From contig DAIDLI010000080.1 in assembly GCA_027449545.1 (NCBI GenBank), positions 37,818-101,817 of the forward strand: a DNA stretch of 64,000 nucleotides. The letters are read 5' to 3'. Positions 15,266 through 49,847 of this stretch are shown here, piece by piece. Every line of letters starts with the position of its first letter. The first letter of the stretch is position 1. The translations under genes were made by a program, and so were the position numbers. Source of the DNA: Acidobacteriaceae bacterium. Its GTDB lineage: Bacteria; Acidobacteriota; Terriglobia; Terriglobales; Acidobacteriaceae. The notes beneath the pieces were generated by a model that saw only the letters and a list, made by a program, of their open reading frames with translations, did no database searches and had not been told where the DNA came from.

Positions 15266-16726
15266 TTATGCTTCCCCGGTTTCGCGCAGCAGGTCCTCCA
15301 TCCGTTTCTGAAGCTGCTCGACGATGGGACGGTAGCCAGGATCGCCATACAGGTTGTGGAGTTCGTGCGGATCGTTGCGGAGATCAAACAACTCCCATTC
15401 CGGCGGATTTTCTTCGTAATACTCGATCAATTTATAGCGTTCGGTTCGGACTCCATGATTCTTGGGCACCATATTGACCGACGGATAATCGTAGAAGGAA
15501 TACAGCCAGTCCGTGCGCCACTTCGCGGCGCCGCCCTGCAGCAGGGGAACGATGCTTTGGCCCTGCATGTGAGCGGGAATAGGACAGCCGGCAAGATCGA
15601 GAATGGTCGGCGCCAGGTCGATGTTGAGTACCATGCGGTCGAGGATCGTGCCTGCAGGGATGCGCTTCGGGTAGCGAATATTCAGCGGGATGCGAATGGA
15701 GGGCTCATACATCAGACGCTTATCGATACAGTGCCATTCCCCGAGAAAGTATCCGTGATCTGAGGTGGTGACAACCGCGGTATCGTCCAGGCAGCCGGAG
15801 TTTTCAAGCGTGCGAAGCAGACGGCCGAGGTACTCGTCTCCTGCCACCGTATTCGCATTGTGACTCTTCACGATCTGCTCCAGGGTGGCGCAATACTCGA
15901 ACGTCCCAACTTTATTACTGGCATTGGCAACCGCATTGGGTCTGCCGGGATAACCCAGCAGGTCATCATTGAATGTCTCGGGCTCAGAGACAAAGACACC
16001 GTCATACAGCCCTTGAAGGCGACGCGGCCGAATGCCCTCTCCGTGAGGAACTTTGAGCCATACAAACAGACAAAATGGCTTATCGTGATCCTCCTGCAAC
16101 CACCGGACTGCAGCGTCGACAACCAAGTCATCCAGATAGCCGTGATATGGCTTATCCGGGCCGATATGGCCGTTCCGCCCCTCTGCAATTTGAGGATTCA
16201 GGTACGGCTGCTGCTGGAGATAGCCAAAATAGTAATCCCAGTAATGATCGCGAAGCGCGCCCTGGATGTGCGATTTTCCGCAGAATGCCACCTCGTAGCC
16301 GGCCTCATGAAGGAAGTCGGACAGGATCTCGATGCCGGGGTTGAGCGGACGGTCGTTGTTGTCAATCACACCGTTCCTTTTTGAGTAGAGACCGGTCAGG
16401 AAGGACGCGCGGCTGGGCGCGCACAGCGCATTGGTGGCAAATGCGTTGTGGAACTGGGCCCCCTCTTGCGCGATGCGGTCCATGTTCGGCGTGCTCAGAA
16501 CGCTGCTGTTTCTGTTTTGATTCCAGGCCAGCGCGGACGCCGCATGTTCCGTCATGCAGCTCAACTGATCGAGCCGCTGTCCGTCGGTCATGAAGATGAC
16601 AAAGTTGGGACGACGCAGGTCTTTCTGCTGCGGAGATGGCGCCGCATCGATACGTGGCGTCGCCGAGGCTCCGATTGCAGCAGCTCCAAGCTTCATGGCG
16701 TCGCGGCGAGTCAACAGATTGGGCAT
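15266..16726 (-). CDS. Sulfatase (alkaline phosphatase-fold), Tat-like signal
   Basis: NFVIFMTDGQRLDQLSC; formylglycine motif NALCAPSRASFLTG (C-x-P-S-R); SDHGYFLGEWHCIDK; signal MPNLLTRRDAMKLGAAAIGASA. Confidence 0.93.
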   Translation of the reverse strand: MPNLLTRRDAMKLGAAAIGASATPRIDAAPSPQQKDLRRPNFVIFMTDGQRLDQLSCMTEHAASALAWNQNRNSSVLSTPNMDRIAQEGAQFHNAFATNALCAPSRASFLTGLYSKRNGVIDNNDRPLNPGIEILSDFLHEAGYEVAFCGKSHIQGALRDHYWDYYFGYLQQQPYLNPQIAEGRNGHIGPDKPYHGYLDDLVVDAAVRWLQEDHDKPFCLFVWLKVPHGEGIRPRRLQGLYDGVFVSEPETFNDDLLGYPGRPNAVANASNKVGTFEYCATLEQIVKSHNANTVAGDEYLGRLLRTLENSGCLDDTAVVTTSDHGYFLGEWHCIDKRLMYEPSIRIPLNIRYPKRIPAGTILDRMVLNIDLAPTILDLAGCPIPAHMQGQSIVPLLQGGAAKWRTDWLYSFYDYPSVNMVPKNHGVRTERYKLIEYYEENPPEWELFDLRNDPHELHNLYGDPGYRPIVEQLQKRMEDLLRETGEA

Positions 16727-16998: not shown

Positions 16999-17075
16999 GA
17001 CTCAACCCTTAGAGAGGGCCGCGGCTCGGCCCCTATCTTTTGAACGATTCGAGATTCTTCTCGGCGGAGGAAGTG

Positions 17076-18863
17076 ATGCGACAGGTTAACGCAATGTGTG
17101 GAATGTGCGTCCTAGCGGTAAGCGTGCTCTTTGGGATGAGCGCGCCATTGTTTGGGAGTTCGATATCAGCCTTGAACGGCGGAGACGCGGACTTGTCTGG
17201 AGCGCAAACCCAGGCTGACGTGAATCTCGCGCTTGGAAAACCGTATACAGTCGAGGACCCGTGGCTTGACCCGCAGTGGGTGCAAACGGAAAAGTCTCAC
17301 CCCGACCCCAACGGAACCAAACTGACCGACGGAGTCTACGGCGCCACGGCACTGGCGAACTTTGTCGGCTACCTGAGGGATGACTATCGCAATATCGACG
17401 TCGATCTCGGCGACATCCAGACCGTTCACACTATCTCGGCAGGATTTTTGCAGTGGGTGGGAGCAGGAATCTACTTCCCGGAAGAGGTCACTTTCTATCT
17501 TTCGTCGGATGGAACACACTGGGCTCGGATCGGCACGGCGCGAACCAAGATTCCGCTGGATACGACCACCAGCGCCAGCGGCAGCAGCACAATCTATCAG
17601 ACCTTCGCGCTTTCCGGTTTCCAATATGCGGCTCGCTACATTCGGGTCCACTTCCAGACCCACGTTTGGGTCTTCTGCGATGAAGTTCAGGCCTGGGGAT
17701 TGACGACGATCTCCGGCTCGGTGCCGTTCCCGCGGGTGACGAGGCCGGAGGTTACGCAGCCGCTTGGTTTCCCGCAACCCGGACCGCGCACCGGCGGCGC
17801 CTCCCAGCAGACGCTTATCTACAACGGCTACACCGCCAATAACACCAGCACCTGGACCGTCGCCGACTTTAAGCCATACGTCACCTACGTGGATGCAAGC
17901 GGAAACAGCAAGAGCATGCTCTTCGATAGTTTCCTCTTTCTTCCCGAGGGGACTGCGCCCTCCGGCAACAGCTTTGGGGCCGCTGGAAAGCCATCTGACC
18001 AGGCTGACTGGCAATATTACATCGACAATACCTTTGATCCGGTGAACCAGCTTACGGCGTTGAATGCGGCCGTGGCCAACGCGCACACGGACCTGCATAA
18101 CAACCTGACCCCACGCGTCGTCATCGCGATTCCTTATCCATCGCCGGCTCAGACACAATTTTCCAGCGGTGTGAACTTCAATCAGAGCCAGGTTGGAGAC
18201 CGCGTTGCGCTGCGCAATCGCTTCAATGCGATCAAATGGTATGTGGATTCGGTGATCCAGAACTGGAACTCGGCAGGTTATGAAAACCTCAGGTTCCTTG
18301 GTTTCTATTGGTATGACGAAAACATCGAGTATGGCAAGAGCACAATCGAGGTTCCACTGATCCAGCGCGTCGCGGAATATGTCCATTCGCGGGGATACAG
18401 GTTCTATTGGATTCCCGACTACCAGGGCCAAGGTTTCCAGATCTGGCAGAAGCTGGGATTCGATGTTACAAATATGCAGCCGAACTATTACACCGCGCCG
18501 GCGACTGTTCCCGCGCAGCGTCTCGCCGTGGCAGCTGCGATTGCCAAGCAGTACGGAATGGGAATTGAAATCGAGATGGACAACAATGTCTTAAACATGA
18601 CCCCGAGCGGCGCAACCTACCGCGGGAAAGTACAAAGCTACTTCAGCTATGGAAGCACCGAGGGATATAAGGGTATGTTCTGCAATTGGTATCAGGGCAT
18701 TCGGACGCTTGAAGATGCATCCCAAAGCACGAATGCGGCACCGCATGCGATCTATGACTCGGCGGAACAGTGGATGATGCCGACCTACCAATGGACGCAA
18801 CGCCGAGACGGCCGCTGGAACGCCGGCGAGCCGGATGGAATGGGGGATCAGCAGGAACGGTGA
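17076..18863 (+). CDS. DUF4855-type protein with N-terminal discoidin-like module (putative glycan-active enzyme), copy 1
   Basis: YLRDDYRNIDVDLGDIQTVHTIS...EEVTFYLSSDGTHWARIG module; TIM-barrel-like LGFYWYDENIEYGKSTIEVPLIQRVAEYVHSRGYRFYWIPDYQGQGF; ATG after GGCGGAGGAAG RBS. Confidence 0.8.
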   Translation: MRQVNAMCGMCVLAVSVLFGMSAPLFGSSISALNGGDADLSGAQTQADVNLALGKPYTVEDPWLDPQWVQTEKSHPDPNGTKLTDGVYGATALANFVGYLRDDYRNIDVDLGDIQTVHTISAGFLQWVGAGIYFPEEVTFYLSSDGTHWARIGTARTKIPLDTTTSASGSSTIYQTFALSGFQYAARYIRVHFQTHVWVFCDEVQAWGLTTISGSVPFPRVTRPEVTQPLGFPQPGPRTGGASQQTLIYNGYTANNTSTWTVADFKPYVTYVDASGNSKSMLFDSFLFLPEGTAPSGNSFGAAGKPSDQADWQYYIDNTFDPVNQLTALNAAVANAHTDLHNNLTPRVVIAIPYPSPAQTQFSSGVNFNQSQVGDRVALRNRFNAIKWYVDSVIQNWNSAGYENLRFLGFYWYDENIEYGKSTIEVPLIQRVAEYVHSRGYRFYWIPDYQGQGFQIWQKLGFDVTNMQPNYYTAPATVPAQRLAVAAAIAKQYGMGIEIEMDNNVLNMTPSGATYRGKVQSYFSYGSTEGYKGMFCNWYQGIRTLEDASQSTNAAPHAIYDSAEQWMMPTYQWTQRRDGRWNAGEPDGMGDQQER

Positions 18864-19914: not shown

Positions 19915-19985
19915 AACTTCGAACTACGAATGCGGTGCGATCAGGTCTTGCGCGGGAATATCAGAGGACTTGATTGGCAGGGAAC

Positions 19986-21692
19986 ATGACGCGAGAGGTT
20001 GAAGCAATGGGCAGGGCATGGATCGTGTCAGTCACTATGCTGTTTTGGATGAGCGCGCTTGTGTGCGGGTGTTCTGGTGGTAAAGCGGCCAGCTCATCTG
20101 GCGCGCCGGCCCAGAGCGACGTTGACCTCGCGCTAGGGAAGCCGTATATCGTCCAGGATCCTTGGCTCGACCCGCAATGGGTACAGAGTGAAACATCGCA
20201 CCCGGACACGAACGGCACTAAACTTACCGACGGAGTGTACGGAACGGCAACGGTGGCAAACTTTGTCGGCTATCTGCGGGATGACTACCGGAACATCGAC
20301 GTGGATCTCGGCGACATTCAAACCATCCACAGTGCCTCCGCAGGATTCCTCCAGGATGTTCACGCTGGAATCTACTTTCCAGAAACAGTTACGTTCTATC
20401 TTTCCTCTGACGGAACCAACTGGGCACAGATCCGAACCGTGCCAACCGCCATTCCACTGGATACGACCAGCAGTAATGGCAGCAGCAGTATCTACCAGAC
20501 CTTCTCGCTTTCCGGTTTAAACTATGCTGCCCGCTACATTCGCATCCACTTTCAGACGCACGTCTGGGTATTTTGCGATGAAGTTCGAGTTATGGGATTG
20601 ACCACGATTGCTGCGACGGTTCCCTTTCCTACGGTGACTCCGCCGGTTGCAACTCCGTCGCTGGGCTTTCCAAAGGCTGGGCCTCTTACCGGCGGCGCAT
20701 CCCAGCAGGCGCTCATCTACAACGGCTACACCGCGAATGATACCAGCACGTGGACAGTTGCTGACTTTAAGCCATACGTTACCTATGTGGACACGAGCGG
20801 AAACAGCCAAAGTATGCTCTTCGACAGTTTCCTTTTCCTCCCCGAAGGCACTGCGCCCTCGGGCGATAGCTTTGGTGCTTCTGGAACGCCGTCGAACCAG
20901 GCGGACTGGCAATATTACATCGACAATACTTTTGACCCGGCCAATCAGCTAACTGCGCTGAATGCAGCGGTGGCGAATGCGCATACTGCACTGCACAACG
21001 ATCTGAACCCTGCGGTGGTCATTGCGATTCCCTATCCATCGCCTTCCCAGACGCAATTCTCAGCGGGCCTCAACTTCAATCAGAACCAGGTTGGCAACAG
21101 CACCGCGCAACAGAATCGCTTCAATGCCATCAAATGGTATATCGATACGGTGATCCAGAACTGGAACACTGCGGGCTACACAAACCTGAACCTCATGGGC
21201 TTCTACTGGTACGATGAAAACATCGAATATGGGTTGAGCACGATCGAGATTCCTCTAATCCAGCAAGTTGCTGCCTATATCCATTCCCGAGGGTATAAGT
21301 TTTATTGGATTCCGGACTACCAGGGTCAGGGATTCCAGGTCTGGCAGCAACTCGGATTTGACATCGCGAACATGCAGCCCAACTATTACACTGCCCCATC
21401 GAGTGTTCCCGCACAGCGTCTTGCCGTAGCAGCTGCCATCTCAAAGCAATATGGTATGGGCATTGAAATCGAGATGGACGACAATATACTAAACATGACC
21501 CCGAGCGGTTCCACCTACCGCACAAAAGTGCAGAGTTACTTCAGCTATGGAGGTACCGAGGGATATAAGGGCACTTTTTGCAACTGGTATCAAGGCATCA
21601 AGACGCTCGAAAATGCATCCCAAAGCACCAACGCCCCGGTTCGTGCAGTCTACGATTCGTCGGAGCAGTGGATGATGCCGACGTCCCAATAG
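19986..21692 (+). CDS. DUF4855-type protein with N-terminal discoidin-like module, copy 2
   Basis: Near-collinear paralogue of 17076-18863; lipoprotein-like signal SALVCGCSGG. Confidence 0.8.
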   Translation: MTREVEAMGRAWIVSVTMLFWMSALVCGCSGGKAASSSGAPAQSDVDLALGKPYIVQDPWLDPQWVQSETSHPDTNGTKLTDGVYGTATVANFVGYLRDDYRNIDVDLGDIQTIHSASAGFLQDVHAGIYFPETVTFYLSSDGTNWAQIRTVPTAIPLDTTSSNGSSSIYQTFSLSGLNYAARYIRIHFQTHVWVFCDEVRVMGLTTIAATVPFPTVTPPVATPSLGFPKAGPLTGGASQQALIYNGYTANDTSTWTVADFKPYVTYVDTSGNSQSMLFDSFLFLPEGTAPSGDSFGASGTPSNQADWQYYIDNTFDPANQLTALNAAVANAHTALHNDLNPAVVIAIPYPSPSQTQFSAGLNFNQNQVGNSTAQQNRFNAIKWYIDTVIQNWNTAGYTNLNLMGFYWYDENIEYGLSTIEIPLIQQVAAYIHSRGYKFYWIPDYQGQGFQVWQQLGFDIANMQPNYYTAPSSVPAQRLAVAAAISKQYGMGIEIEMDDNILNMTPSGSTYRTKVQSYFSYGGTEGYKGTFCNWYQGIKTLENASQSTNAPVRAVYDSSEQWMMPTSQ

Positions 21693-21871: not shown

Positions 21872-23746
21872 TTATCCTTGGGGGCCGAGGAAGTGAGCCA
21901 GCCATTCCATCGCCCGCCAAACGGCTTCCGGCGTGGGGAAATGCCCTGCATGATGGTCAAAATAGCCGATATTCATGGGCTTTCCATAAAGTTGATAGAC
22001 CTGTCGTGCTGCATTGATGTAATGCCAACTTTTCGCGGTATCGTAGGTATCGCCGCCGATCAAGAGAAAGGGCCTGGGCGAGATGAGTCCAAGAAGTTCG
22101 TGCTGATCGGTCCCATTGTTCAATTTATGGATGAAGTCACCGAAATACCAAAAGTCATCATAGTTAGAGAACGAGAGTCCGATCCCCAACTCATTGGCGA
22201 CTACGGCAGTTATGCGGGAATCGAAGGCGGCTGCATAGAGCGCCATCTTGCCGCCAAGCGAATGGCCGATGATGCCGATTCGCTCGTGGTCAATCTCCGG
22301 CAGAGTAGATAGATAATCCACCAGTCGGTGCGCGTCCCAAACCCATTTGCCGAGGCCGGTACAGTGGGGATGGCGAAGCTTCAGGTTGGCTACCGCTTCA
22401 GCATACGATTCGCCGTAGCTCTCACCAAACCAACGAATGGCCACGGCAATGTAGCCCTTCTGTACGGCGGCATATGCGTACGAGTCAACGCCCATGCCCA
22501 GGAACTTACGTCCTGATAAGTCGCGCCCTGCCGGGGTATCCACGTCGTAGAAGGGCACAATCACAGCAGGGCGCGGGGTGCGGAGGTCGCTTGCCGGCAT
22601 CATGACAAGGATCTTCTCCCACCAGTCCGGCTCCACCTGAAGGTACATGAGCCGCGCGGTGTAATTCTGATCCCGCAGGATTTCGACCGTCCGGGTCTGA
22701 GGCGGCGGAGGACCAATCTCCATGGATCCGAGCAGCTTGAGCCACTTTGCCATGATCTTGTCACGGCGATATTGCCATGCTTGGATAGAGTTAGACCCGC
22801 CAACCAGAGACGTTAGATTGCCAATCGACGATTGATAGCCAGCGGGAGCATTGTTATAGGGATTGAACCAATCCGGTGAGAGCTGGGATGCGGGGAGAAC
22901 AGGTTTAGGCGCCGCAGTGCGGCAGATCCGAAAACCTGTGAAGCGGCTCTTATATTCTGGCTCCATTGACGACCGGTAATCACGCACCCACTCCGCCGAA
23001 GTGGTGCTGACGTACGAACCGCCCCGGACAATTCGGGCGAGGCCCCGCAAAGGTCCGGCTGGGTTATAAGAAGCCTGCGGCGTGCTTTCGGGGTTAGCGT
23101 AATCAGAAGTCCACTCCCATACGTTCCCGTACATATCATAGAGGCCGAATGCATTGGCAGGGTAACTGCCCGGCGGTTTGGTGCCTGAGTCCTTCAGTTC
23201 TTCGAGAAAGCGCCCGACGTGCTTGGTATCGGAGCTGCCAAGATTGGCTTGCAGCATCTCCCCGTTGGTGCCAGATAGGGGCCCCGCTGCATGCGCCCAT
23301 TCAGCGTCGGTGGGAAGACGGTACCCATTCCTGCTCACATCGCAAAACCCGGTTTCCAGGTTGTAGCAAGGCTCCAGGCCCTCTTCCTGGCTGCGTCGGT
23401 TGCAGTAACGGATAGCTTCCCACCAGCTTACCGTCTCCACGGGCAGATCAGAGCCTTGATGAAAGGACGGGTTATAACCCATCACCAACTCAAACTCGCT
23501 TTGAGTCAGCTCCTGCGGAGACATGAGGAACTTGCCGACGGTAACTGTTACCGGAACTGTGCTGAGCGTATCGATAACCTCATAACTCGTGCCGGGGATC
23601 TCGACCAAACGGCTGCGTGACGAGACATCTTGATCAGAACGCTCGAGGTTGGCTGCTGCCTCCAGATGGCTTTCTGCAGCGGCCATACCGGAAACCATGG
23701 TCGCCACTCCAAGAATTGAACCCTTCAGGAAATTTCGCCGCTCCAT
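21872..23746 (-). CDS. Fusion: Tat-like signal, FGE/SUMF1-like domain, C-terminal alpha/beta-hydrolase (acetyl-esterase-like)
   Basis: MERRNFLKGSILGVATMVSG; FGE-fold motifs NRRSQEEGLEPCYN, YRLPTDAEWAHAA, GLYDMYGNVWEWTSDY, RIVRGGSY, FTGFRICR; then GIIGHSLGGKMALYAAAFDSRI nucleophile elbow and GHFPTPEAVWRAMEWLAHFL; RBS AGGAAG. Confidence 0.85.
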   Translation of the reverse strand: MERRNFLKGSILGVATMVSGMAAAESHLEAAANLERSDQDVSSRSRLVEIPGTSYEVIDTLSTVPVTVTVGKFLMSPQELTQSEFELVMGYNPSFHQGSDLPVETVSWWEAIRYCNRRSQEEGLEPCYNLETGFCDVSRNGYRLPTDAEWAHAAGPLSGTNGEMLQANLGSSDTKHVGRFLEELKDSGTKPPGSYPANAFGLYDMYGNVWEWTSDYANPESTPQASYNPAGPLRGLARIVRGGSYVSTTSAEWVRDYRSSMEPEYKSRFTGFRICRTAAPKPVLPASQLSPDWFNPYNNAPAGYQSSIGNLTSLVGGSNSIQAWQYRRDKIMAKWLKLLGSMEIGPPPPQTRTVEILRDQNYTARLMYLQVEPDWWEKILVMMPASDLRTPRPAVIVPFYDVDTPAGRDLSGRKFLGMGVDSYAYAAVQKGYIAVAIRWFGESYGESYAEAVANLKLRHPHCTGLGKWVWDAHRLVDYLSTLPEIDHERIGIIGHSLGGKMALYAAAFDSRITAVVANELGIGLSFSNYDDFWYFGDFIHKLNNGTDQHELLGLISPRPFLLIGGDTYDTAKSWHYINAARQVYQLYGKPMNIGYFDHHAGHFPTPEAVWRAMEWLAHFLGPQG

Positions 23747-23790: not shown

Positions 23791-25887
23791 TTATGGCTGC
23801 GCGTGGGGGGGCTGATCTCCGCTGGCGGCATCGACCAAGTGTTGAATTGCAGGCAACACCGCGAAGTCGACTAGCTCTTCGTGTTGCGTGGCCTGGTTGA
23901 GCAATTGTTTTTGCGCCGCCAGCCAATCAGCGGGAGGCGGAGTGTTCCGGGCCAGATAGTCAAGCGACTCCAGACCAGCCGTGCCGAGTTTGGGCCATTG
24001 GCCAATTCGGTCGGAAGCCTGCTGCAACCGCGGCGAGTGCATGGCATATCGCGCAACTGCAGGCGCAGCCGCTATCCATGCTTTGAAGATAGAGCGAAGT
24101 TGACTGGCTGCGGCCGCATCGCCATGCAGCGCGCGGTCCACGAGTTGATCCATCTCTTGGCGAAGCGGCGGGTCGGGACGGACCGCATCGACCAGAAGGT
24201 CAAACGACGTGAGCTGCGTGGGATGCTCTTGCTTGTAGCGAATGGAAGTATCAACCGGCTGCAGCGTGCTGGCGAAGAGCATCAGGGGTTCGTCGTCGGC
24301 GGTGCCGGCAAGCTGACGCAGGCCGCGGTTGGGGTCGGCGATGTGGTCGAGTCCGTCAGCATCCAGACGTAGCGACTCAACGTCCAGACGGCGATACATG
24401 TCATTTGTATCGCGATCGGAGGCGGGTGACCACAAGCGCTCGGCAACCGCAGCAGCGCGCGGCCAGATACGCGAGTCCACACTGTCAGGAGAGATCTGTT
24501 CGCTCCACATGCAAGCCTCTCCACCGAGGATCAGCTTAGCCTGGGCGGGCGTCAGGTTTGCTTCGGCAGGCACAGGGTCGGCTAGGAATACCTGGGCCGC
24601 GGTATACATGTGGTCAAGATAGTAAGGATGGGCATAGAGTTCGCGATGGCCCTCTTTGGCGCCCTCGATTAGGAATTGATCGCGGTGCCACACCTCGATG
24701 ACGGCGTTCTTGGGCAGAGCGGGGTTCAGGATCTCGTCCCAGCCCACTGTGCGTTTGTGATAACGGCCCAGGATCTTTTGCACGCGGGTGCTGAAGTAGG
24801 TTTGGAGCTGCGCAGTGGTGGTGTAACCGTGGGCCTTCATAAAAGCGCGGATATGGGGGTTGGCGCGCCATTCCTTGCCGTTACTTTCATCGCCGCCGAT
24901 GTGCATATAGGGGTCAGGAAAGAGCCGGGCCATCTCGCCTAGGAATGCATCGAGGAACTGGTAGGTCGAATTCCGGGTGGGGTCGAATGCGGAATCAAAG
25001 ATGCCAAAACTCGTTTGTACGGAATAGGGGCCAGGCGCGCTGCCAAGGTTGGGATAGCCAACCATCCAAGAGGTGGAGTGGCCGGGCATATCGAACTCCG
25101 GTACCACGCGGATGCCACGCGCCGAAGCGTAAGTAATCACATCGCGTACCTGCTGCTGCGTGTAGTAAAGACCGTTGGAGCCCATCTCTTGCAGCCGGGG
25201 AAAGACGTGGCTTTCGATTCGGAAGCCCTGGTCCTCGGTGAGGTGCCAGTGGAAGACGTTGAGCTTGACCGCAGCCATTCCGTCGAGCGTTCGATAGATT
25301 ACGTTGAGGGGCATGAAGTGACGTCCGCAGTCGAGCATCAGGCCGCGCCAGGGAAAGCGTGGAGCATCCTGAATGTGGACAGCAGGGAAGACGAAGCCGC
25401 TGCCTGCGGGCTGCGCAAGCTGAAGAAGTGTCTGCAGGCCGCGTAGCGCGCCGATGTCGGTGTTGGCGCGGAGCGTGATGTGTTGGGGCCCCGCATCGAG
25501 CGTGTAACTCTCATCCTCGTCCGGCGTGGGAAAAGCGTCGCTGGCGGCAGAGCGCACATCGATGGTGAAGGTAGCACTGGCGGCGTTGGCGGTGGGCGTG
25601 AGCGCCATCTGCACACCGGTGTACATCTCCAAGTGGTGGATGAAGCGTACGGCGCCCTGGCGGAGGCGGTTGCCGTTGTTGCCGTGGAGTGCGTAAATGA
25701 AGGTGGTTCTGATGGGCATGTCGCCTGCCTCTTCCGTAAGCGAGGCCGGCTGCGGCATGAGAGTGTTGATGAAGGTGGCGGGCGCAGGGGATTGAGCCAT
25801 CAGGGGCACAACGGCTAGCGATAGAACCAGGCCAGCAACCGTGCTACGGCGAGCAGCGGCAGATACAAAGCGAATTGCTCCGGTCAT
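23791..25887 (-). CDS. Glycoside hydrolase family 20 beta-N-acetylhexosaminidase
   Basis: WRGLMLDCGRHFMPLNVIYRTLDGMAAVKLNVFHWHLTEDQGFRIES, VVPEFDMPGHSTSW, HIGGDES (catalytic D-E), GGEACMWSE. Confidence 0.95.
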   Translation of the reverse strand: MTGAIRFVSAAARRSTVAGLVLSLAVVPLMAQSPAPATFINTLMPQPASLTEEAGDMPIRTTFIYALHGNNGNRLRQGAVRFIHHLEMYTGVQMALTPTANAASATFTIDVRSAASDAFPTPDEDESYTLDAGPQHITLRANTDIGALRGLQTLLQLAQPAGSGFVFPAVHIQDAPRFPWRGLMLDCGRHFMPLNVIYRTLDGMAAVKLNVFHWHLTEDQGFRIESHVFPRLQEMGSNGLYYTQQQVRDVITYASARGIRVVPEFDMPGHSTSWMVGYPNLGSAPGPYSVQTSFGIFDSAFDPTRNSTYQFLDAFLGEMARLFPDPYMHIGGDESNGKEWRANPHIRAFMKAHGYTTTAQLQTYFSTRVQKILGRYHKRTVGWDEILNPALPKNAVIEVWHRDQFLIEGAKEGHRELYAHPYYLDHMYTAAQVFLADPVPAEANLTPAQAKLILGGEACMWSEQISPDSVDSRIWPRAAAVAERLWSPASDRDTNDMYRRLDVESLRLDADGLDHIADPNRGLRQLAGTADDEPLMLFASTLQPVDTSIRYKQEHPTQLTSFDLLVDAVRPDPPLRQEMDQLVDRALHGDAAAASQLRSIFKAWIAAAPAVARYAMHSPRLQQASDRIGQWPKLGTAGLESLDYLARNTPPPADWLAAQKQLLNQATQHEELVDFAVLPAIQHLVDAASGDQPPHAQP

Positions 25888-25913: not shown

Positions 25914-26984
25914 TCATTCTGTACCCAGATAGAGAAGCTTCAGGGCATTGTCGCGGTAGAGTTTGCGCAGCACGTCATCCGGCAGAAAGACGCCATGAAT
26001 GCTCCAGCGCCCCTGGCGCGAAGCGTGCGAGGGGTAATCGAAGTACTCATCTGCAGTTTCAAGAAAGCGGTAGTAGAGGCGGTACATCTCCACCTCCGGC
26101 AGCAGATCGGTGCCAAAGATAATGCGGTCCGCGTATTTCGTCAAAAAGGTGCGCGCGGTGTAGGGTTGCCGGCCCAGTTCCGCCACGCGCGCGCTTATAT
26201 CGATGTAGAGATTGGGATGCTGGTCGAGGAGCTTGCCCACGGAAGCCAGGTCTTCACTGCCTTCGGCAAGGTGTGCGCCGACGAAGGTAGTTTTTGGATG
26301 GCGGGCAAAGACGCGATTGCGCTGCTCAAGCAACTCGGCCTTGGAGACCGGCGAGCCGTGGAAGCTCCAGTCCGGATGCGCCGCCAACTCTTCGTAGCGC
26401 TCGTTGAAGCGGTCGATGGGCCGGAAGAACGCATCGGGGTCGGCGGTGTGAAACATGACGGGGATGCCAAGCTCTGCAGCCTTGTCGAAAAGAGGCGCCC
26501 ATCGCTCATCGTCGATGCGCAGCAGAGCGCCGGAGCCGTCACGGACGCTTAACCCCAGGTCTTTCCAGAACTTGATGCCGCGGGCGCCGTGCTCCACGAG
26601 TCGCTCCAGCCGGTCGAGCGAGAGCGGAAGGAAATCGGCGCGCTCCACTCCCGACCAGTCCATCCAGCCATACGAGTGAAATCGGTCTGGTGCCGTGTGA
26701 TGAAAGCGGTCCAGGATGTCCAGAGCCGCCTGCCCGGTGTGCATGGTAATGTTGATGAGCTTTTCCACGCCGCACGTGTCCATGATGCGGAGAACATGCT
26801 CCGGCGTGAGCGAGTCGAGATGGTTGTGGTAGTCGATAACGGGGAACCGGGGATGCGTGATGGTGTGCTCGCCCACCTTGAGTTCAGTGCGCGGGGCAAA
26901 ATCACTCAGGCGTAGATCGACCTCGGCCCGGGCATTGACCATCGTGACAAACTTATCGTCTTGATTCGGAATCGAACTCGACAT
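25914..26984 (-). CDS. Amidohydrolase-family (Amidohydro_2-like) TIM-barrel hydrolase
   Basis: FPVIDYHNHLDSLTPEHVLRIMDTCGVEKLINI, GIPVMFHTADP, FVGAHLAE, RIIFGTDLLPE metal-site-like motifs. Confidence 0.85.
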   Translation of the reverse strand: MSSSIPNQDDKFVTMVNARAEVDLRLSDFAPRTELKVGEHTITHPRFPVIDYHNHLDSLTPEHVLRIMDTCGVEKLINITMHTGQAALDILDRFHHTAPDRFHSYGWMDWSGVERADFLPLSLDRLERLVEHGARGIKFWKDLGLSVRDGSGALLRIDDERWAPLFDKAAELGIPVMFHTADPDAFFRPIDRFNERYEELAAHPDWSFHGSPVSKAELLEQRNRVFARHPKTTFVGAHLAEGSEDLASVGKLLDQHPNLYIDISARVAELGRQPYTARTFLTKYADRIIFGTDLLPEVEMYRLYYRFLETADEYFDYPSHASRQGRWSIHGVFLPDDVLRKLYRDNALKLLYLGTE

Positions 26985-40363: not shown

Positions 40364-41581
40364 ATGGAGCAAGGCCTGAAAAAAACATTCGGTATCGAAA
40401 GCGAGCAGCGTCGCGGGCTGCAAGGCAAGTTCCGTGACCTGTTGCTCAAGGATGTTGTCCCTTTCTGGCAGAGGCACGGAATCGACTGGAAAGACGGGGG
40501 TGTGCTGACCTGCATCGGTGACGATGGTTCGCTGTTAGGCACCGACAAGTTCATCTGGTCCCAGGCACGCTCGGTGTGGACGTTCTCAGCTCTCTACAAT
40601 CGCGTTGAGCAGCGCGGTGATTTCCTGCGTGCGGCTGAAAATTCGGTGAGATTTCTGCTCGCGCATGGACGCGATAGCTTGGGCCGCTGGGTGTATCGCA
40701 CCGATCGTGCGGGCAATGTACTGGAGGGCGCAACCAGCATATATTCCGATTGCTTTGCTGTATATGGGCTGAGCGAATACTTCCGCGCGCGCCCAGATCC
40801 GCAGGTGCTCGCCGTTGCACGAGAGGCGTTCGAGCGAACTCGTCGCCGCATCGAGGAGCCGGATTTTCAGGAGACGGCGCCTTATCTGCTTCCGCGGGGC
40901 TGGCGGAATCACGGTGTTCCGATGATTTTGGCGGAGGTCAGCAGCGAATTTGCGCAGACCACCGGCGATCCCGCTCTGGAGGCGGCCGCCGACGAATATG
41001 TGGGACGCGTCATGGACCATTTCGTGCGGCCGGATCGCAAGGTGGTGCTGGAGTTTCTGACGCGTGATTACCAGGAGCTGCCCGCGCCGGCAGGAACGTT
41101 TGTCATGCCGGGACACGCCATCGAATGCATGTGGTTTGTTCTGCACATTGCAGCGCGTCGCGGCGATTGCGAACGGATTCAACGCGCTGCCGAGGTCATG
41201 TTGTGGCATCTCGAACTGGGTTGGGATACGGAATATGGCGGTATCTATCTTTCGCGCGATGTCGAGGGACACAGGCCCTATCTTCCGCACTCAGAGATGA
41301 AGGTGTGGTGGCCGCACACGGAGGCGATGTACGGCACGCTGCTGGCGTTTCATCTTACCGGGCGAACGGAGTTCCTGGATTGGTTTGAGAAGGTATCGCA
41401 GTGGGCGTGGGAGCATTTTCCTGTACCCACCGGAGAATGGCGTCAGCGACTGACGCGGGACGGAAAGCCGAGCACTGAGATCGTTGCCTTGCCGGTAAAG
41501 GATCCATTTCATTTGCCGCGCGCAGCCATCCTGATCCTGCAATTGCTGGAAAAAATGGAAAAGGGAACAACCGCCGGGTGA
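40364..41581 (+). CDS. AGE-family epimerase/isomerase (N-acylglucosamine 2-epimerase-like)
   Basis: HGIDWKDGGVLTCIGDDGSLLGTDKFIWSQARSVWTFSALYN, MPGHAIECMWFVLHIA, WWPHTEAMYGTLLAF. Confidence 0.9.
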   Translation: MEQGLKKTFGIESEQRRGLQGKFRDLLLKDVVPFWQRHGIDWKDGGVLTCIGDDGSLLGTDKFIWSQARSVWTFSALYNRVEQRGDFLRAAENSVRFLLAHGRDSLGRWVYRTDRAGNVLEGATSIYSDCFAVYGLSEYFRARPDPQVLAVAREAFERTRRRIEEPDFQETAPYLLPRGWRNHGVPMILAEVSSEFAQTTGDPALEAAADEYVGRVMDHFVRPDRKVVLEFLTRDYQELPAPAGTFVMPGHAIECMWFVLHIAARRGDCERIQRAAEVMLWHLELGWDTEYGGIYLSRDVEGHRPYLPHSEMKVWWPHTEAMYGTLLAFHLTGRTEFLDWFEKVSQWAWEHFPVPTGEWRQRLTRDGKPSTEIVALPVKDPFHLPRAAILILQLLEKMEKGTTAG

Positions 41582-41591
41582 GGGGCGTCCG

Positions 41592-42734
41592 ATGAGAGCT
41601 CGTGAGATCGCCGGGCGGGATCCGGTAAGCGGCCGCTCGCTCCGGATCCGCATTGAAGATGGGTATATTGTCTCCGTTGCTCCCTGTTCGCGCGCGGAGC
41701 GGGCATGGCTATCCCCTGGGTTTGTCGATATTCAGGTGAACGGCTACGGCGGCTGCGATGTCAATGCGGATTGCATCGATCCGGATGTGATCTTCATGCT
41801 CGCGCGCAAGCTGCGCGAAGGGGGCGTGACGACCTTTGTCCCCACCATTATCACCGCCTCTGAAGAGAAGATCGTCAAAGCGCTTCGTGTCATCGCGGAA
41901 ACGCGACGCCGCGATATGCTTGCAGCGCACGCGATTCCGTTCGTGCATGTCGAAGGGCCGCATCTCTCGCAGGAAGATGGCTCGCGCGGAGCGCACCCGC
42001 GGGAGCATATCCGGCCTCCAGACCTCGAAGAGTTGCGCCGCTGGCAATCGGCCTGTGATCATCTCGTCGGCATGGTGACGATCTCCCCGCATTGGGAAGG
42101 AGCCGCAGAGTACATCGCCGCGGCAGCGGCAATGGGCGTGCGCGTAGGCATCGGACATACGCATGCGACACCGGAACAGGTGCATCTGGCGGCCGATGCG
42201 GGAGCTACGATTTCAACCCATCTGGGGAACGGGCTCGCCGATCCGTTGCCGAGACACCCGAATCTGCTGTGGGCGCAGCTTGCGGATGACCGTCTGACGG
42301 CAAGCTTCATTGCAGACGGGCACCATCTTCCCGACGATACTCTGAAGACGATGATTCGCGCCAAGGGCGTGGAGCGTAGTCTTCTAATTTCCGACGCGGT
42401 GGCATTGGCGGGAATGAACCCCGGCTTCTATACCGCGCCGGTTGGCGGGCGGGTGGAGCTTCATGCAAACGGAAGACTCAACATTGAAGGGACGAATTTC
42501 CTGGCAGGCGCAGCGTGTCCGCTCAAGGACGGCATCGCGCATCTTGTGGCTTCCATCGGCATAAGTCTGGGCGACGCGGTACGGATGGCATCCGGAAATC
42601 CGGGGCGGCTGGTGGGAAAGCGGAGCACGCTTTTGCCTGGATCAACAGCGGATCTGGTGCAATTCACCTTCGATCCGGCCACGCAGGACTTTCACGTGGA
42701 ATCCATCCTCGTGCGCGGAGTCGATGTCGAATGA
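41592..42734 (+). CDS. nagA: N-acetylglucosamine-6-phosphate deacetylase (copy 1)
   Basis: WLSPGFVDIQVNGYGGCDVN, HVEGPHLS, VGIGHTHATPEQVHLAADAGATISTHLGNGL, ISDAVALAGM. Confidence 0.92.
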   Translation: MRAREIAGRDPVSGRSLRIRIEDGYIVSVAPCSRAERAWLSPGFVDIQVNGYGGCDVNADCIDPDVIFMLARKLREGGVTTFVPTIITASEEKIVKALRVIAETRRRDMLAAHAIPFVHVEGPHLSQEDGSRGAHPREHIRPPDLEELRRWQSACDHLVGMVTISPHWEGAAEYIAAAAAMGVRVGIGHTHATPEQVHLAADAGATISTHLGNGLADPLPRHPNLLWAQLADDRLTASFIADGHHLPDDTLKTMIRAKGVERSLLISDAVALAGMNPGFYTAPVGGRVELHANGRLNIEGTNFLAGAACPLKDGIAHLVASIGISLGDAVRMASGNPGRLVGKRSTLLPGSTADLVQFTFDPATQDFHVESILVRGVDVE

Positions 42735-42880
42735 GCGGCAGCATGGTCCGTGCCGCCTTCCGCACGGATGGCGCGGGACGAATGGGAGATGAGTTGTCGC
42801 TGGATGGGCACGGCATCAGAGGGCGAGAAGCACCGCCCCGGGTGAGAATAATCCAATACAAGGAACAGAGGCGAATCACG

Positions 42881-43819
42881 ATGAATCCTTCTTCTGCGGG
42901 AACCGGCTGGTACCACCGCGCGTGGATCTTCGGACTTTTTCTCATGGCTGCGCTCATGGTCCGTACTCCGCTCTTAGCCCAGCTCAAGGTGTTGCGCGTT
43001 GACCCGCACGCAACCAACCCCGCTATCGAAGCGGTCCATGGTCCGCACCTGGTTCTTTACGATCCGCGGACGCCATCGCAGCATCGGCTCTTCGTCTTTT
43101 TGCCCGGCACGGGCGGCAAGGCAGATGGGGCAATGCCGATTGCCAGCGCATTTGCGGGCTGGGGATACCACTCCATCGCGCTCGACTATGAAGATAATGT
43201 GGTGGCCATGACCTGTGCGCGCAGCACAGACGCCGCGTGCTTCGATCGTTATCGGAAGGCTATCGTGACGGGTGCGCCGGTGAGTAACAAGATCCATGTC
43301 AATCGTGCGAACTCGATCTTGAGCCGTCTCCAGAATCTGTTGCTCTATCTGGCCCAGCACGATCCCACTGGCGGATGGCAGGAATTTCTGGATCATGGTC
43401 AGCCAGCATGGAAGCGCATTGTGATCGCCGGCCATTCTCAAGGCTCCGGCCACGCGGCGTACATCGGGAAACTATTCGCGGTCGATCGCGTGCTGATGTT
43501 CTCAGGCCCGCAGGACTACCTGGTAGCACTCAACCAGCCAGCTCCCTGGTTGTTGCAGCATAGCGCCACACCACCGTCCCGATATTTCGCCTTTCTGAAT
43601 TGGAAAGATCCGTTTAACGTCCACCATCAGATTGCCAACTGCATGGCGCTGATGGATCTCGCGACGGTGGAGACCCAGGTCGTCGAACCAGGTAAGCCGA
43701 TAAAGGGAAGACACCAAATCCTTATCACCAAGTTACCCACCCCAAATCCTCATGGATCCACGATCCGACCGCGTTTTGCCAATGTTTGGCAATATATGGG
43801 GGGAGCTGTAACGCAATAA
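42881..43819 (+). CDS. Secreted alpha/beta-hydrolase (BPSS1187-like)
   Basis: LFVFLPGTGGKADGAMPIASAFAGWGYHSIALDYED, IVIAGHSQGSGHAAYIGKL. Confidence 0.75.
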   Translation: MNPSSAGTGWYHRAWIFGLFLMAALMVRTPLLAQLKVLRVDPHATNPAIEAVHGPHLVLYDPRTPSQHRLFVFLPGTGGKADGAMPIASAFAGWGYHSIALDYEDNVVAMTCARSTDAACFDRYRKAIVTGAPVSNKIHVNRANSILSRLQNLLLYLAQHDPTGGWQEFLDHGQPAWKRIVIAGHSQGSGHAAYIGKLFAVDRVLMFSGPQDYLVALNQPAPWLLQHSATPPSRYFAFLNWKDPFNVHHQIANCMALMDLATVETQVVEPGKPIKGRHQILITKLPTPNPHGSTIRPRFANVWQYMGGAVTQ

Positions 43820-43870
43820 AGGACCGTCGAGACGGTACTTTTACTGTGCGCGGCTTTTCCTGTAGGCCGG

Positions 43871-45028
43871 CTATATCTTTGCAAGTCGTCCCTCAATCAT
43901 CGATGCTAGCAGCCTGCCGTCGGCATCGATGGCCACGAGGTCCGCAGGGCTGCCCTCGGCGAGGGCAGCGGTCATGCCGATCATCTCAACCGGATTGGTC
44001 GTCAGCAGGCGCAGCGCCTTCTCCAGCGGCGCACCCGTGAACTCAAGAAAATTGGTGAGCGCGCGGTCCTGCGTGAGCACGCTGCCGGCCAGTACGCCCC
44101 GGGCCATCGCGCGGCCATTGGCCACCTGCACGGCAAAACCGCCCAGTTGGTACTCGCCGTCGGGCATTCCGGTGGCGCTCATGGCGTCGGTCACCAGAAT
44201 GCCGCGCTGCTCGCCCTTCGCCTTCCACCACAGCCGCACCATGTCCGGAGCGACGTGAATGCCGTCGCAGATCAGCTCTGCGTAAAGCTGATCCTGCGTG
44301 AGCACGAGGCCCAGGATGCCCGGCTCGCGGTGGTCCAGGGGGCGCATGGCGTTGAAGGTATGGGTTGCGCTGGCGGCACCGGCGTTGAGAACCGCCTGTG
44401 TCTCCACGGCCGTCGCATTGGAGTGTCCCATTGATACCCGCACGCCGCGCGCCGTGGCGTGTGCGGCCAGCTCGGCGGCACCGGGAAGTTCGGGCGCCAG
44501 CGTAATGAGGTGCAGATGCCCTTCGGCGGCCTCGTACAGACGGTCGAAGACGGCAATATCCGGTGTGCGCAGGTGCTCGGCTGGTTGTACTCCCTTCTTT
44601 TCATGGGAGAGAAACGGGCCTTCGAGATGAATCCCCACCGGGCGCGCGATCGGCTGCTTTCCGCTCTGCAAAGATGCAGGATTTGCAATCAGTCTGGCAA
44701 GGCCTGAGACCGCGCGCAAAGTCGCGTCGAGCGGTGCGGTGACGGTGGTCGCCAGGTAGCGAGCGGTGCCGTGCCGTGCCAGCAGAGCGCCGATCGGCTG
44801 GAGCGCCTCTGGCTTGGCTTCCATCACGTCGTGCCCTGCGGCACCGTGAAAGTGCACATCGAAGAAAGCGGGGCAGAGGGTGGCGCCGGGAAAGTTATGT
44901 GCCGGCGTTGCCCAGGACTCCTTGGTCCGGGTGATCGCGGCGATGCGGTTGTCTTCGATCTCAATAACGGGGTTCTCTACGATTCCTTCAGCAGACCAGA
45001 GGCGAGCGGCAGTCACGAGCGTGCGCAT
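43871..45028 (-). CDS. nagA: N-acetylglucosamine-6-phosphate deacetylase (copy 2)
   Basis: LCPAFFDVHFHGAAGHDVME, HLEGPFLSHEKKGVQPAEHLR, VSMGHSNATAVETQAVLNAGAASATHTFNAMRPL, VTDAMSATGMPDGEYQLGG. Confidence 0.93.
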   Translation of the reverse strand: MRTLVTAARLWSAEGIVENPVIEIEDNRIAAITRTKESWATPAHNFPGATLCPAFFDVHFHGAAGHDVMEAKPEALQPIGALLARHGTARYLATTVTAPLDATLRAVSGLARLIANPASLQSGKQPIARPVGIHLEGPFLSHEKKGVQPAEHLRTPDIAVFDRLYEAAEGHLHLITLAPELPGAAELAAHATARGVRVSMGHSNATAVETQAVLNAGAASATHTFNAMRPLDHREPGILGLVLTQDQLYAELICDGIHVAPDMVRLWWKAKGEQRGILVTDAMSATGMPDGEYQLGGFAVQVANGRAMARGVLAGSVLTQDRALTNFLEFTGAPLEKALRLLTTNPVEMIGMTAALAEGSPADLVAIDADGRLLASMIEGRLAKI

Positions 45029-45122
45029 GATCCATTATTGCCATCGGTGACCGGGAAGGGGCCAGAGTTCTTTGCTCTGCGCACAGGCAAACAGTGTCTG
45101 GCTTTACGTCACGCTAGTATTC

Positions 45123-45137
45123 TTGTATAGTCTGCTA
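45123..45137 (+). promoter_or_regulatory. Operator-like element TTGTATAGTCTGCTA over likely -10 of gntR
   Basis: 14/15 identical to reverse complement of 47223-47237; TTTACG-17-TATAGT promoter. Confidence 0.5.
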
Positions 45138-45202
45138 GGTGATAGGATGTCACGGTGCGCCAAGCTAATGGTGGATGGACCAACGGGTGGCTGTGATAGG
45201 GT

Positions 45203-46099
45203 TTGCGGCGTGCATTGTTCTCGCGCCCGATGGTTGGGCAGATCAGAGAAGCGCGCGCGATGTTTTCAGGGGAGGGCTCTAGATTCATGGCGAAAAGCCA
45301 GGATAAGTCAGGTTTAGCGGCTGCGCCAGTTAGCGAGGGCGCCTCACATCTGCAGTTCGCGTCCCTTGATAAGAATAGCTATACGCCGATGTATGCCCAG
45401 ATCCAGGCGCAACTGCTGGATATGATCCGTTCGGGCAAGCTTCAGCCGGGCGACTTGCTGCCCAGCGAAGAGGAGTTGGGGCGGATTCACAACATCAGCC
45501 GGATGACAGCGCGGCAGGCGCTGCAGTCGCTGAAAGCGCAGGGCTTCGCGATTCGTCAGAAGGGCAAGGGAACATTTGTTGCCCGCCCCAAGATGGAAAA
45601 GGACATCACGCATCTTTCCGGCTTTTCCGCGGAGATGCGTTCGCTGGGAATGAAGCCCAGCTCGCAGGTATTGGCTGCGGAAATCATCGCCGCCACCGAC
45701 GAGGTGGCTTCGCGCCTCGCGCTGGACCGGGGAGCGAGGGTATTCAGGCTCTGCCGCCTCCGTATGGCCGATAACCTTCCTCTTGCTCTCGAAGAGAGCC
45801 GTCTGCCCCTGGACAAGTTTCCTGGCATCGAGAAGATCGACTTCTCGCGGCTTTCGCTGTATCAGACTCTGCATGAGCGATACGGCATCCGCTTTGCTGT
45901 GACCGATGAAATTCTCGAAGCGCGGACCGCCAGCCGTCACGAGGCGCAGTTGCTTGAGATCCCCCTGCGGTCGTGCCTGCTCGTCATTTCACGCACTTTG
46001 TGGAGCGTCGATGGGGAACCGCTGGAAACGGCGAGCTCTTCGTACCGGGGCGATCGCTACCGTGCTGTGCTGCGCATCCCGTCCACGATTGAGAAGTAA
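45203..46099 (+). CDS. GntR-family (HutC/NagR-type) transcriptional regulator with UTRA domain; start may be 45287
   Basis: PMYAQIQAQLLDMIRSGKLQPGDLLPSEEELGRIHNISRMTARQALQSLKAQGFAIRQKGKGTFVA; UTRA-like domain HLSGFSAEMRSLGMKPSSQVL...LPLALEESRLP. Confidence 0.93.
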   Translation: MRRALFSRPMVGQIREARAMFSGEGSRFMAKSQDKSGLAAAPVSEGASHLQFASLDKNSYTPMYAQIQAQLLDMIRSGKLQPGDLLPSEEELGRIHNISRMTARQALQSLKAQGFAIRQKGKGTFVARPKMEKDITHLSGFSAEMRSLGMKPSSQVLAAEIIAATDEVASRLALDRGARVFRLCRLRMADNLPLALEESRLPLDKFPGIEKIDFSRLSLYQTLHERYGIRFAVTDEILEARTASRHEAQLLEIPLRSCLLVISRTLWSVDGEPLETASSSYRGDRYRAVLRIPSTIEK

Positions 46100-46121
46100 G
46101 CAGGTCCGGCGTCGGCGACGT

Positions 46122-47153
46122 TTACAGGCTCGCGTGACCGAGCAAAACTACGGCCACCAGCAGAACGGCTATCCCTATGTACATCCAGAGGCGTGCGCGC
46201 GGGGGCGCGAGCTTCCATTCGCCCAGGCCCATGCCGATCGCGTTTGCGAACAGCAGGCCCACGGCCAAGCTGAGCGGCCATCCAATCGAGGTGCCCAGCG
46301 AGCCGAGCCGGGGCGCCGAAGCTCCGTAGACGAAGATGCTGCCTCCCCACAGCAGCGCCATGAGCAGCGAGAGGCTGAAGAGGCGCGCTGCGCCGGGCTG
46401 GCTGAATTTCCTCATACTGCTGTGCCGGTAGATCAGATAGAGGCAGAACCCGAGGTTAGAAACAGCACCTGCCCCCAGCATGATCCACCAGATCAGGTTT
46501 GTGGCGGCAAACTTGCTGAGGCCATTCGCGCGGCCGCACGCCGCAATGGGCTGAGCGAGCGCAAATCCGATGTTGAACACGGCCGAAAGAATGCCCGCCC
46601 CACACGCCATGAGCAGGGCCACTTTGAGGGGGCGCGCCTGACCGACCATCTCGCCCCGCTCCGTTTCGGCGCCAGCCGCCCGCTCGCGCAATCTTCCCGC
46701 CCAGCCGCAGAGAGCGATGCCTGCAACTTCAACCAGTACGCTGGCCAGAATCTTCTCTCCCGCGGGCTCCAACAACTTGTTGGGTGACAGCAACACCATG
46801 GGCAGCAGAGAGCCCAGCGCCGAACTGATTGCCAGCACCAGGGTATTCGCGAGCGAAATGCCGATAGCGCTCACGCTCTGCCCAAACAGAAGGGCGCCGA
46901 AACCCCAGGCAAAACCCGTCAGCGCCGCGCTCAGCAGTGCCTGCGCGGGCGCCTGCGCGATGATCATCCAACTGCGCGGCGCCACCAGCGTTATCATCGC
47001 CGCCGGCAAGAGCACGCAGGAAAACAGGATGAACAGGCTCCAGACGTTCTCCCATTCCCAGCGTCCCAGGAAGCGCATGGGCAACGTAAAGCTTCCATTC
47101 ATAAGGCCGGAGAGAACGGCCAGAAGCATACCGGCAAGAATCATGCTGTTCAT
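46122..47153 (-). CDS. RhaT (L-rhamnose/H+ symporter)-family permease, copy 1
   Basis: GLMNGSFTLPMRFLGRWEWENVWSLFILFSCVLLPAAM, FAWGFGALLFGQSVSAIGISLANTLVLAISSALGSLLPM. Confidence 0.88.
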   Translation of the reverse strand: MNSMILAGMLLAVLSGLMNGSFTLPMRFLGRWEWENVWSLFILFSCVLLPAAMITLVAPRSWMIIAQAPAQALLSAALTGFAWGFGALLFGQSVSAIGISLANTLVLAISSALGSLLPMVLLSPNKLLEPAGEKILASVLVEVAGIALCGWAGRLRERAAGAETERGEMVGQARPLKVALLMACGAGILSAVFNIGFALAQPIAACGRANGLSKFAATNLIWWIMLGAGAVSNLGFCLYLIYRHSSMRKFSQPGAARLFSLSLLMALLWGGSIFVYGASAPRLGSLGTSIGWPLSLAVGLLFANAIGMGLGEWKLAPPRARLWMYIGIAVLLVAVVLLGHASL

Positions 47154-47222
47154 GGAGGTTCCCGATCTCCCTGCAGTGTGGGAATCTTTGTACGCTTGCA
47201 GCTTGTCTTCATGCAATAAGCA

Positions 47223-47237
47223 TAGTAGACTATACAA
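47223..47237 (-). promoter_or_regulatory. Operator-like element (reverse strand TTGTATAGTCTACTA) between divergent rhaT-like and nanE-ROK genes
   Basis: 14/15 match to 45123-45137. Confidence 0.5.
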
Positions 47238-47297
47238 TAGTACAACAATGGATAACCGACGCGGAGAGCAACAGCAAGGCGGGAAGCGGGAGACTCG

Positions 47298-48917: not shown

Positions 48918-49028
48918 ACGAAGGCGGATTGGGCGTACCAGAAAGATCGGCCCACATCAAACGCGCTCCACCACGCCGTAAGCATCTGCGCGACTGTGAT
49001 CCAAAATCAAGGAGATCGGTTCGTCTTT

Positions 49029-49847
49029 ATGGATAGGATTCAGTGCCAAGTCAACAAGCTTAAAGTGGAAATCTACCCCGATCGCGAGGCCTGCGGGCAC
49101 GCCGCCGCACAGGCTGCCGCGGATGCGATGCGCGAATTGGCCAACACACGCAAGACCCTTGCCGTAGTGTTTGCCACAGGCGCCTCGCAGTTGAACACTT
49201 TGCATACGCTCGTCAGCCAGGACGATCTGCCCTGGAGTCGGATTACTGGCTTTCACCTCGATGAATATGTGGGCATCGATGTGAATCATCGTGCCTCGTT
49301 CCGCAGATATCTTCGCGAACATCTCACTTCGCGTGTTCCGATGGACGCGTTTTTCGAGATCGATGGGAATGCACACGATCTCGAAGGATTCTGCCGGGAA
49401 TACGCTGAGCAGCTTCGGCAATTCGCCCCTCAACTGTGTTTGCTGGGCATCGGAGAAAACGGACACTTGGCCTTTAACGATCCGGGAGAAGCCGATTTCG
49501 CCGATCCAAAGGCAATGAAGGTCGTGCAGCTCGACGCCGTATGCCGCCAGCAACAGGCGTCAGAAGGTTGGTTCCCCTCGCTCCACGATGTGCCGGAACG
49601 CGCGCTCACGCTGACGATTCCCACCGTGATGCGGATTCCCAAACTCATCGCTTCGGCGCCCGGCAAACGCAAGGCGGAGATCGTGAAGCGGACGCTGCAG
49701 GACTGCATCTCGGAAGAATGTCCGGCGACGATTCTTCGCAACCATCCTGACGCCACCCTCTTTTTAGACACTGCATCCGCCGCGCTCTTGTACGGGAATG
49801 GTGGAGTGCTGCCGGGGAACCCGACCGGCAGGGAAGAGCGCGCGTGA
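49029..49847 (+). CDS. nagB: Glucosamine-6-phosphate deaminase
   Basis: AVVFATGASQLNTLHTLV, GFHLDEYVGI, LCLLGIGENGHLAFNDPGEADF, ALTLTIPTVMRIPKLIASAPGKRKAEIV. Confidence 0.93.
   Translation: MDRIQCQVNKLKVEIYPDREACGHAAAQAAADAMRELANTRKTLAVVFATGASQLNTLHTLVSQDDLPWSRITGFHLDEYVGIDVNHRASFRRYLREHLTSRVPMDAFFEIDGNAHDLEGFCREYAEQLRQFAPQLCLLGIGENGHLAFNDPGEADFADPKAMKVVQLDAVCRQQQASEGWFPSLHDVPERALTLTIPTVMRIPKLIASAPGKRKAEIVKRTLQDCISEECPATILRNHPDATLFLDTASAALLYGNGGVLPGNPTGREERA

Follow-up and report, generated by a model that had tools for sequence, protein, structure and literature searches.

The fusion gene lies on the minus strand of the window (the whole 64,000-nt stretch of DNA analysed) at 21872..23746, extending from an ATG at 23746 to a stop at 21872 as an open reading frame of 624 aa, with the purine-rich AAAGGAAG before the ATG. 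Pfam matches and full-length orthologues divide its product into an export signal, an FGE-fold domain, a linker and a CE15-like alpha/beta-hydrolase. The export signal (aa 1-31; 23654..23746, minus strand), delimited by orthologue alignment, is twin-arginine-like (ERRNFLKG), and the N-terminal residues, MERRNFLKGSILGVATMVSGMAAA, resemble a twin-arginine export signal when read by eye. In the alignment, the closer orthologues (L007-L009) keep the RRxFL motif and the distant orthologues start with short hydrophobic stretches; the fusion protein is apparently exported. The linker to the hydrolase carries a WFxPYN stretch that is conserved throughout the fusion alignment.

Two genes on the same strand lie upstream. 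A GH20 beta-N-acetylhexosaminidase-like gene (23791..25887, minus strand; Pfam, 324 bits) is positioned 44 bp upstream of the fusion, probably in the same operon, and is itself preceded, across a gap of 26 bp, by an amidohydrolase (PF04909 by Pfam; 25914..26984, minus strand) that is the probable first gene of this operon. No terminator-like site was found between the amidohydrolase, the GH20 gene and the fusion, and L006 has the three in the same order. The arrangement agrees with the sequence-only reading, which had proposed co-transcription of the fusion with the GH20 and amidohydrolase genes, and such co-transcription is plausible on gene order and spacing. In other lineages the neighbours are carbohydrate-degradation genes of other kinds: a GH92 (L007), a sulfatase (L010), an apiosidase-like gene (L011) and a DUF2264 gene (L009). 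The neighbourhood supports a role in glycan breakdown; because neighbours differ between lineages across all loci compared, the substrate is not readable from context. Elsewhere in the window, an amino-sugar catabolic cluster spans 40364-50896, with a GlcNAc 2-epimerase family gene and a NanE-ROK kinase fusion (47298-48917) confirmed by Pfam, and with two NagA-like deacetylases, a GntR-type regulator, a NagB-like gene and two similar sugar-permease-like genes (46122-47237 and 49844-50896) recognised from their translations. Two near-alike neighbouring genes at 17040-18863 and 19974-21692, each carrying an F5/8 type C domain and DUF4855, are probably a tandem duplication.

A search for SUMF1-hydrolase fusions, suggested by the sequence-only reading, revealed that the full-length architecture recurs in Acidobacteriota, Glassbacteria and Sedimentisphaerales. 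Full-length orthologues, 48-98% identical to the fusion, are present in 10 other genomes of the GTDB collection, eight of them from Acidobacteriota and one each from Glassbacteria and Sedimentisphaerales; their number rules out an assembly chimera. Scanning 396 genomes of the phylum yielded one further carrier, G379, besides the window's own genome, and within the genus to which the window belongs the fusion is found in 2 of 80 genomes. The copy in G453 is 98% identical, and G453 is possibly the same assembly as L006. In the flanks examined around GH20 homologues of the genus, the fusion is absent. This patchy distribution suggests that the fusion was either acquired by horizontal transfer or often lost. 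Purifying selection acts on both domains, with dN/dS of about 0.04-0.15 where estimable and dS near saturation beyond L006. The two-domain protein is therefore genuine and conserved, though rare. In the Sedimentisphaerales locus (L013, 5110-7980), the fusion carries ~300 extra C-terminal residues resembling an SurA/PpiC-type foldase, and three carboxypeptidase-like paralogues lie upstream of it.

The C-terminal CE15-like alpha/beta-hydrolase (about aa 300-624; 21875..22849, minus strand) matches the Pfam family GCE_fung at 64 bits, above the cut-off of 27, and AXE1 at 28 bits. Every PDB match to a profile of the C half at E<1e-8 is a CE15 enzyme, and CE15 structures fill the first 23 places among the fold matches of the full-length AlphaFold model. 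This model, built from 11 sequences, is weak (pLDDT 66) and poor in the FGE half, which was for that reason remodelled with 66 sequences. The similarity to AXE1/CE7 acetyl xylan esterases is that of alpha/beta-hydrolases in general and lies far below the CE15 match; the scores rule out AXE1 membership, and the AXE1 label attached to this half in the sequence-only reading gives way to a CE15 relationship.

The same reading had described a complete esterase-like hydrolase with a GHSLGG motif, and this half does look intact: GHSLGG occupies residues 494-499 and the predicted triad is invariant in the family. It comprises the predicted nucleophile Ser496 (GHSLGGK; 22259..22261, minus strand), the predicted catalytic His602 (HxxGH; 21941..21943, minus strand) and the predicted catalytic acid Glu519 (22190..22192, minus strand) at the position of OtCE15A Glu290 (PMC6937553), all falling on CE15 positions by sequence alignment, not superposition. 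The CE15 Lys271 position is likewise kept in most fusion copies. The active-site surroundings differ from those of OtCE15A and other CE15 enzymes, however. The nucleophile is followed by Leu497 (Tyr in L013) where CE15 has Arg, so that the Ser-Arg signature is missing; no Trp stands at the place aligned with the sugar-contact residue Trp358; and the Glu305 segment is shortened, the aligned place of Glu305 being less certain. Two other CE15-type genes of the same genome, L027 and L028, have Ser-Arg. Of 27 characterised CE15 enzymes, 26 have Arg immediately following the nucleophile (PMC6937553); this residue contributes to the oxyanion hole (PMC6937553, PMC8933493), and the R268A exchange in OtCE15A strongly reduces activity (PMC8933493). 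By analogy, its loss in the fusion could yield a slow or a different enzyme. Because this defining feature of CE15 is missing, the C half is not to be filed as a glucuronoyl esterase; on its sequence it is a CE15 relative, not a CE15 member, with a mode of action that is probably that of a serine carbohydrate esterase.

A stand-alone hydrolase (L033, genome G104) has the GHSLG, SEGGIG and HxxGH pattern in common with the fusion and scores 220 bits against the family profile, but, unlike the fusion, has no FGE-fold domain. No counterpart of the hydrolase half was found in the viral contigs. In L033 the hydrolase gene adjoins a gene resembling a metal-dependent amidohydrolase (no Pfam match), the two lying at 2-1087 and 1273-2346; the fusion in the window likewise has an amidohydrolase close by, and the parallel may be chance.

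The FGE-fold (FGE-type C-type-lectin-like) domain covers aa 46-282 (22901..23611, minus strand), as supported by PF03781, the best PDB match TvpA, AlphaFold modelling and fold search. The match to Pfam FGE-sulfatase (PF03781) extends over residues 88-275 with 118 bits (E 6e-34, cut-off 23.3). Within the domain, HMMER alignments and column counts place RGGSYVSTTSAEW (aa 241-253; 22988..23026, minus strand) at the site of both the FGE Cys pair and the TvpA variable region. The protein contains RGGSYVSTTSAEWVRDYRSS, in which the stretch following RGGS has no Cys, and its five Cys residues (115, 127, 135, 275 and 462) all lie outside this segment. In HMMER alignments to solved FGEs, Ser247 occupies the place of hFGE Cys336, and the place of Cys341 falls into a three-residue gap. 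The missing Cys pair noted in the sequence-only reading is confirmed and extends beyond this gene, the copper-binding pair (GGSxxCxxxxC) being absent from the fusion and from all its other copies. Of 131 PF03781-type domains of the same branch, taken from bacterial genomes and viral contigs with a readable motif, one contains GGS-x-x-C-x4-C, and this single match is a partial fragment; the sample was gathered by similarity to the fusion, contains near-duplicates, and therefore speaks for one PF03781 branch instead of the family at large. A pattern of this kind does pick up canonical FGE (GGSYLCHKSYCNRYR) in the genomes of L014 and L015, which serves as a positive control. By these comparisons, PF03781 domains of this branch ordinarily lack the Cys pair.

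Modelling of the N domain with 66 aligned sequences gave pLDDT 86.7 and pTM 0.87. The best PDB fold match of this model is TvpA of Treponema denticola (PDB 2y3c; TM 0.77, normalised by query), an FGE-type C-type-lectin-fold retroelement target, and human FGE comes second; the AlphaFold check proposed with the sequence-only reading thus recovers the FGE fold in a well-modelled domain. Among PDB sequences, a profile of the fusion N domains scores TvpA at 148 bits versus 88 bits for the best FGE. FGEs (human SUMF1, S. coelicolor and T. curvata) have PF03781 and the overall fold in common with the fusion (TM 0.69), whereas the fusion has no Cys336/Cys341 pair, is apparently exported, and resides in a genome with an anaerobic sulfatase-maturating enzyme (anSME). 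By both sequence and fold, the closest solved relative of the N domain is TvpA, not FGE.

TvpA-type proteins adopt the FGE subtype of the C-type-lectin fold, in which exposed variable residues form the ligand-binding site (PMC6328139, PMC5006420). At the exposed positions, column counts reveal 13-17 residue types in viral relatives; Ser260, Ser267 and Thr270 do not vary at all in the fusion family, and several other face positions hardly do. Two of the viral relatives, L085 and L086, carry a template repeat downstream of the FGE-fold gene, with mismatches confined to adenines of the template (25/25 and 26/26), and are clear retroelement targets. These viral cases, together with the kinship to TvpA, speak for the N domain being an active target of a diversity-generating retroelement with a diversified binding face, a reading to which we give almost no credence: no reverse transcriptase (RVT_1) was found at E 1e-3 in the genome (~93% complete), no template repeat was found in the window (best candidate, 45% identity), and orthologues agree in their binding face. 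The missing reverse transcriptase and template repeat rule this out for the assembled part of the genome. TvpA is a single-domain variable protein, whereas the fusion N domain is joined to an esterase, undiversified, and unaccompanied by a reverse transcriptase. Because the face positions are conserved in the family and the genome has no detected reverse transcriptase, the N domain likely presents a fixed face that would bind a ligand. Alternatively, the N domain might bind no ligand and serve the hydrolase only in structure or folding, a proposal that we regard as rather unlikely. In its favour, matches to PorK/GldK show FGE-fold domains in a lipoprotein that is a structural ring component in type IX secretion; the conserved WFxPYN stretch in the linker is also in line with a structural role. 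A pure spacer, however, would not need the conservation seen at the TvpA-type ligand-binding face, and the stand-alone L033 indicates that the hydrolase fold needs no FGE-fold domain.

Catalytic and related roles of the N domain are further alternatives. One of them is sulfatase activation, either by the N domain itself or with it as a helper of the neighbouring sulfatase, in the manner of human SUMF2, an FGE paralogue without the Cys pair whose structure (1y4j) matches the N domain weakly. About 5 kb from the fusion, at 15266-16726, lies a gene for a sulfatase with an SGSH_C domain; its product starts with a twin-arginine-like segment and has CAPSR as its Cys-type motif. In L010 a gene ahead of the fusion also encodes a sulfatase. 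Sulfatases adjoin the fusion inconsistently, however, and every copy of the fusion is without the Cys pair. The genome contains eight sulfatase genes, seven of them, the 15266-16726 gene included, with Cys in the activation position, and one anSME at 515 bits against a curated cut-off of 349; no canonical FGE that a helper could assist was found in the ~93% complete assembly, its other PF03781 matches being an EgtB beside an EgtD-like gene, a BNR-repeat protein and a weak pilin-like match. Because the anSME is strong, sulfatase maturation is accounted for without the fusion protein. Two other fusion carriers, the L014 and L015 genomes, encode a canonical FGE separate from the fusion. On the missing Cys residues and the anSME we reject a sulfatase activator, and an activating or helping role taken as a whole is very improbable. 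The sequence-only reading had considered this half a binding or structural domain and not a sulfatase activator: its second part stands, on the absent Cys pair, the anSME and the separate FGEs, and its binding part draws support from the ligand-binding TvpA as closest structural relative. Another chemistry, as in EgtB, PvdO or OvoA, is scarcely more probable. FGE-fold enzymes of other chemistry exist (PMC5006420), and the N domain matches PvdO, EgtB and SenA weakly. None of the EgtB, PvdO or SenA matches reaches its curated cut-off (for the EgtB NCBIfam model, 41 bits against 360), and OvoA/SenA likewise remain below theirs. EgtB requires a DinB metal domain, which is absent from the fusion by Pfam. 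An EgtB/PvdO-type enzyme is rejected on scores below every curated cut-off. With their strong PF03781 matches, proteins like the fusion may easily receive an annotation as sulfatase activators or as non-heme iron enzymes; the evidence opposes both. The G379 genome (L032) is 97% complete and encodes 27 sulfatases, and neither an anSME over the cut-off nor a canonical FGE was found in it.

We favour, as the probable reading, an exported esterase that acts on carbohydrates and has an accessory module of the FGE-type lectin fold. The C-terminal CE15-like hydrolase would cleave an ester on a poly- or oligosaccharide through Ser496-His602-Glu519, a triad that we infer because these residues are conserved and align with those of CE15. 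The N-terminal domain, without FGE chemistry, would most likely serve as a fixed ligand-binding or substrate-positioning module. The fusion is probably made together with the GH20 hexosaminidase and the amidohydrolase, beside the amino-sugar catabolic cluster, and, going by this neighbourhood alone, the substrate in this organism would plausibly be a glycan containing amino sugars. A more far-reaching version, which we put forward tentatively and consider less probable than its opposite, is that a kind of lectin module diversified by retroelements in phages and spirochaetes has been fixed here as a built-in part for substrate recognition by an exported esterase, the hydrolase representing a sister family of CE15 with another ester specificity.

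Glycan binding by the N domain, if it occurs, would make the FGE-type fold one more carbohydrate-binding module known from esterases. The hydrolase half would be related to CE15 while having an altered oxyanion site, and would probably act on another ester substrate. An incomplete search of the open-access literature found no publication on an FGE-fold domain combined with a CE15-like hydrolase; the architecture appears undescribed, and each half is already of a known kind. The BNR-repeat protein of the same genome (L003, 1-2151, minus strand) is a second FGE-like fusion, in which a PF03781 domain precedes sialidase-like BNR repeats; it too lacks the Cys pair, and it counts in favour of the accessory-module reading.
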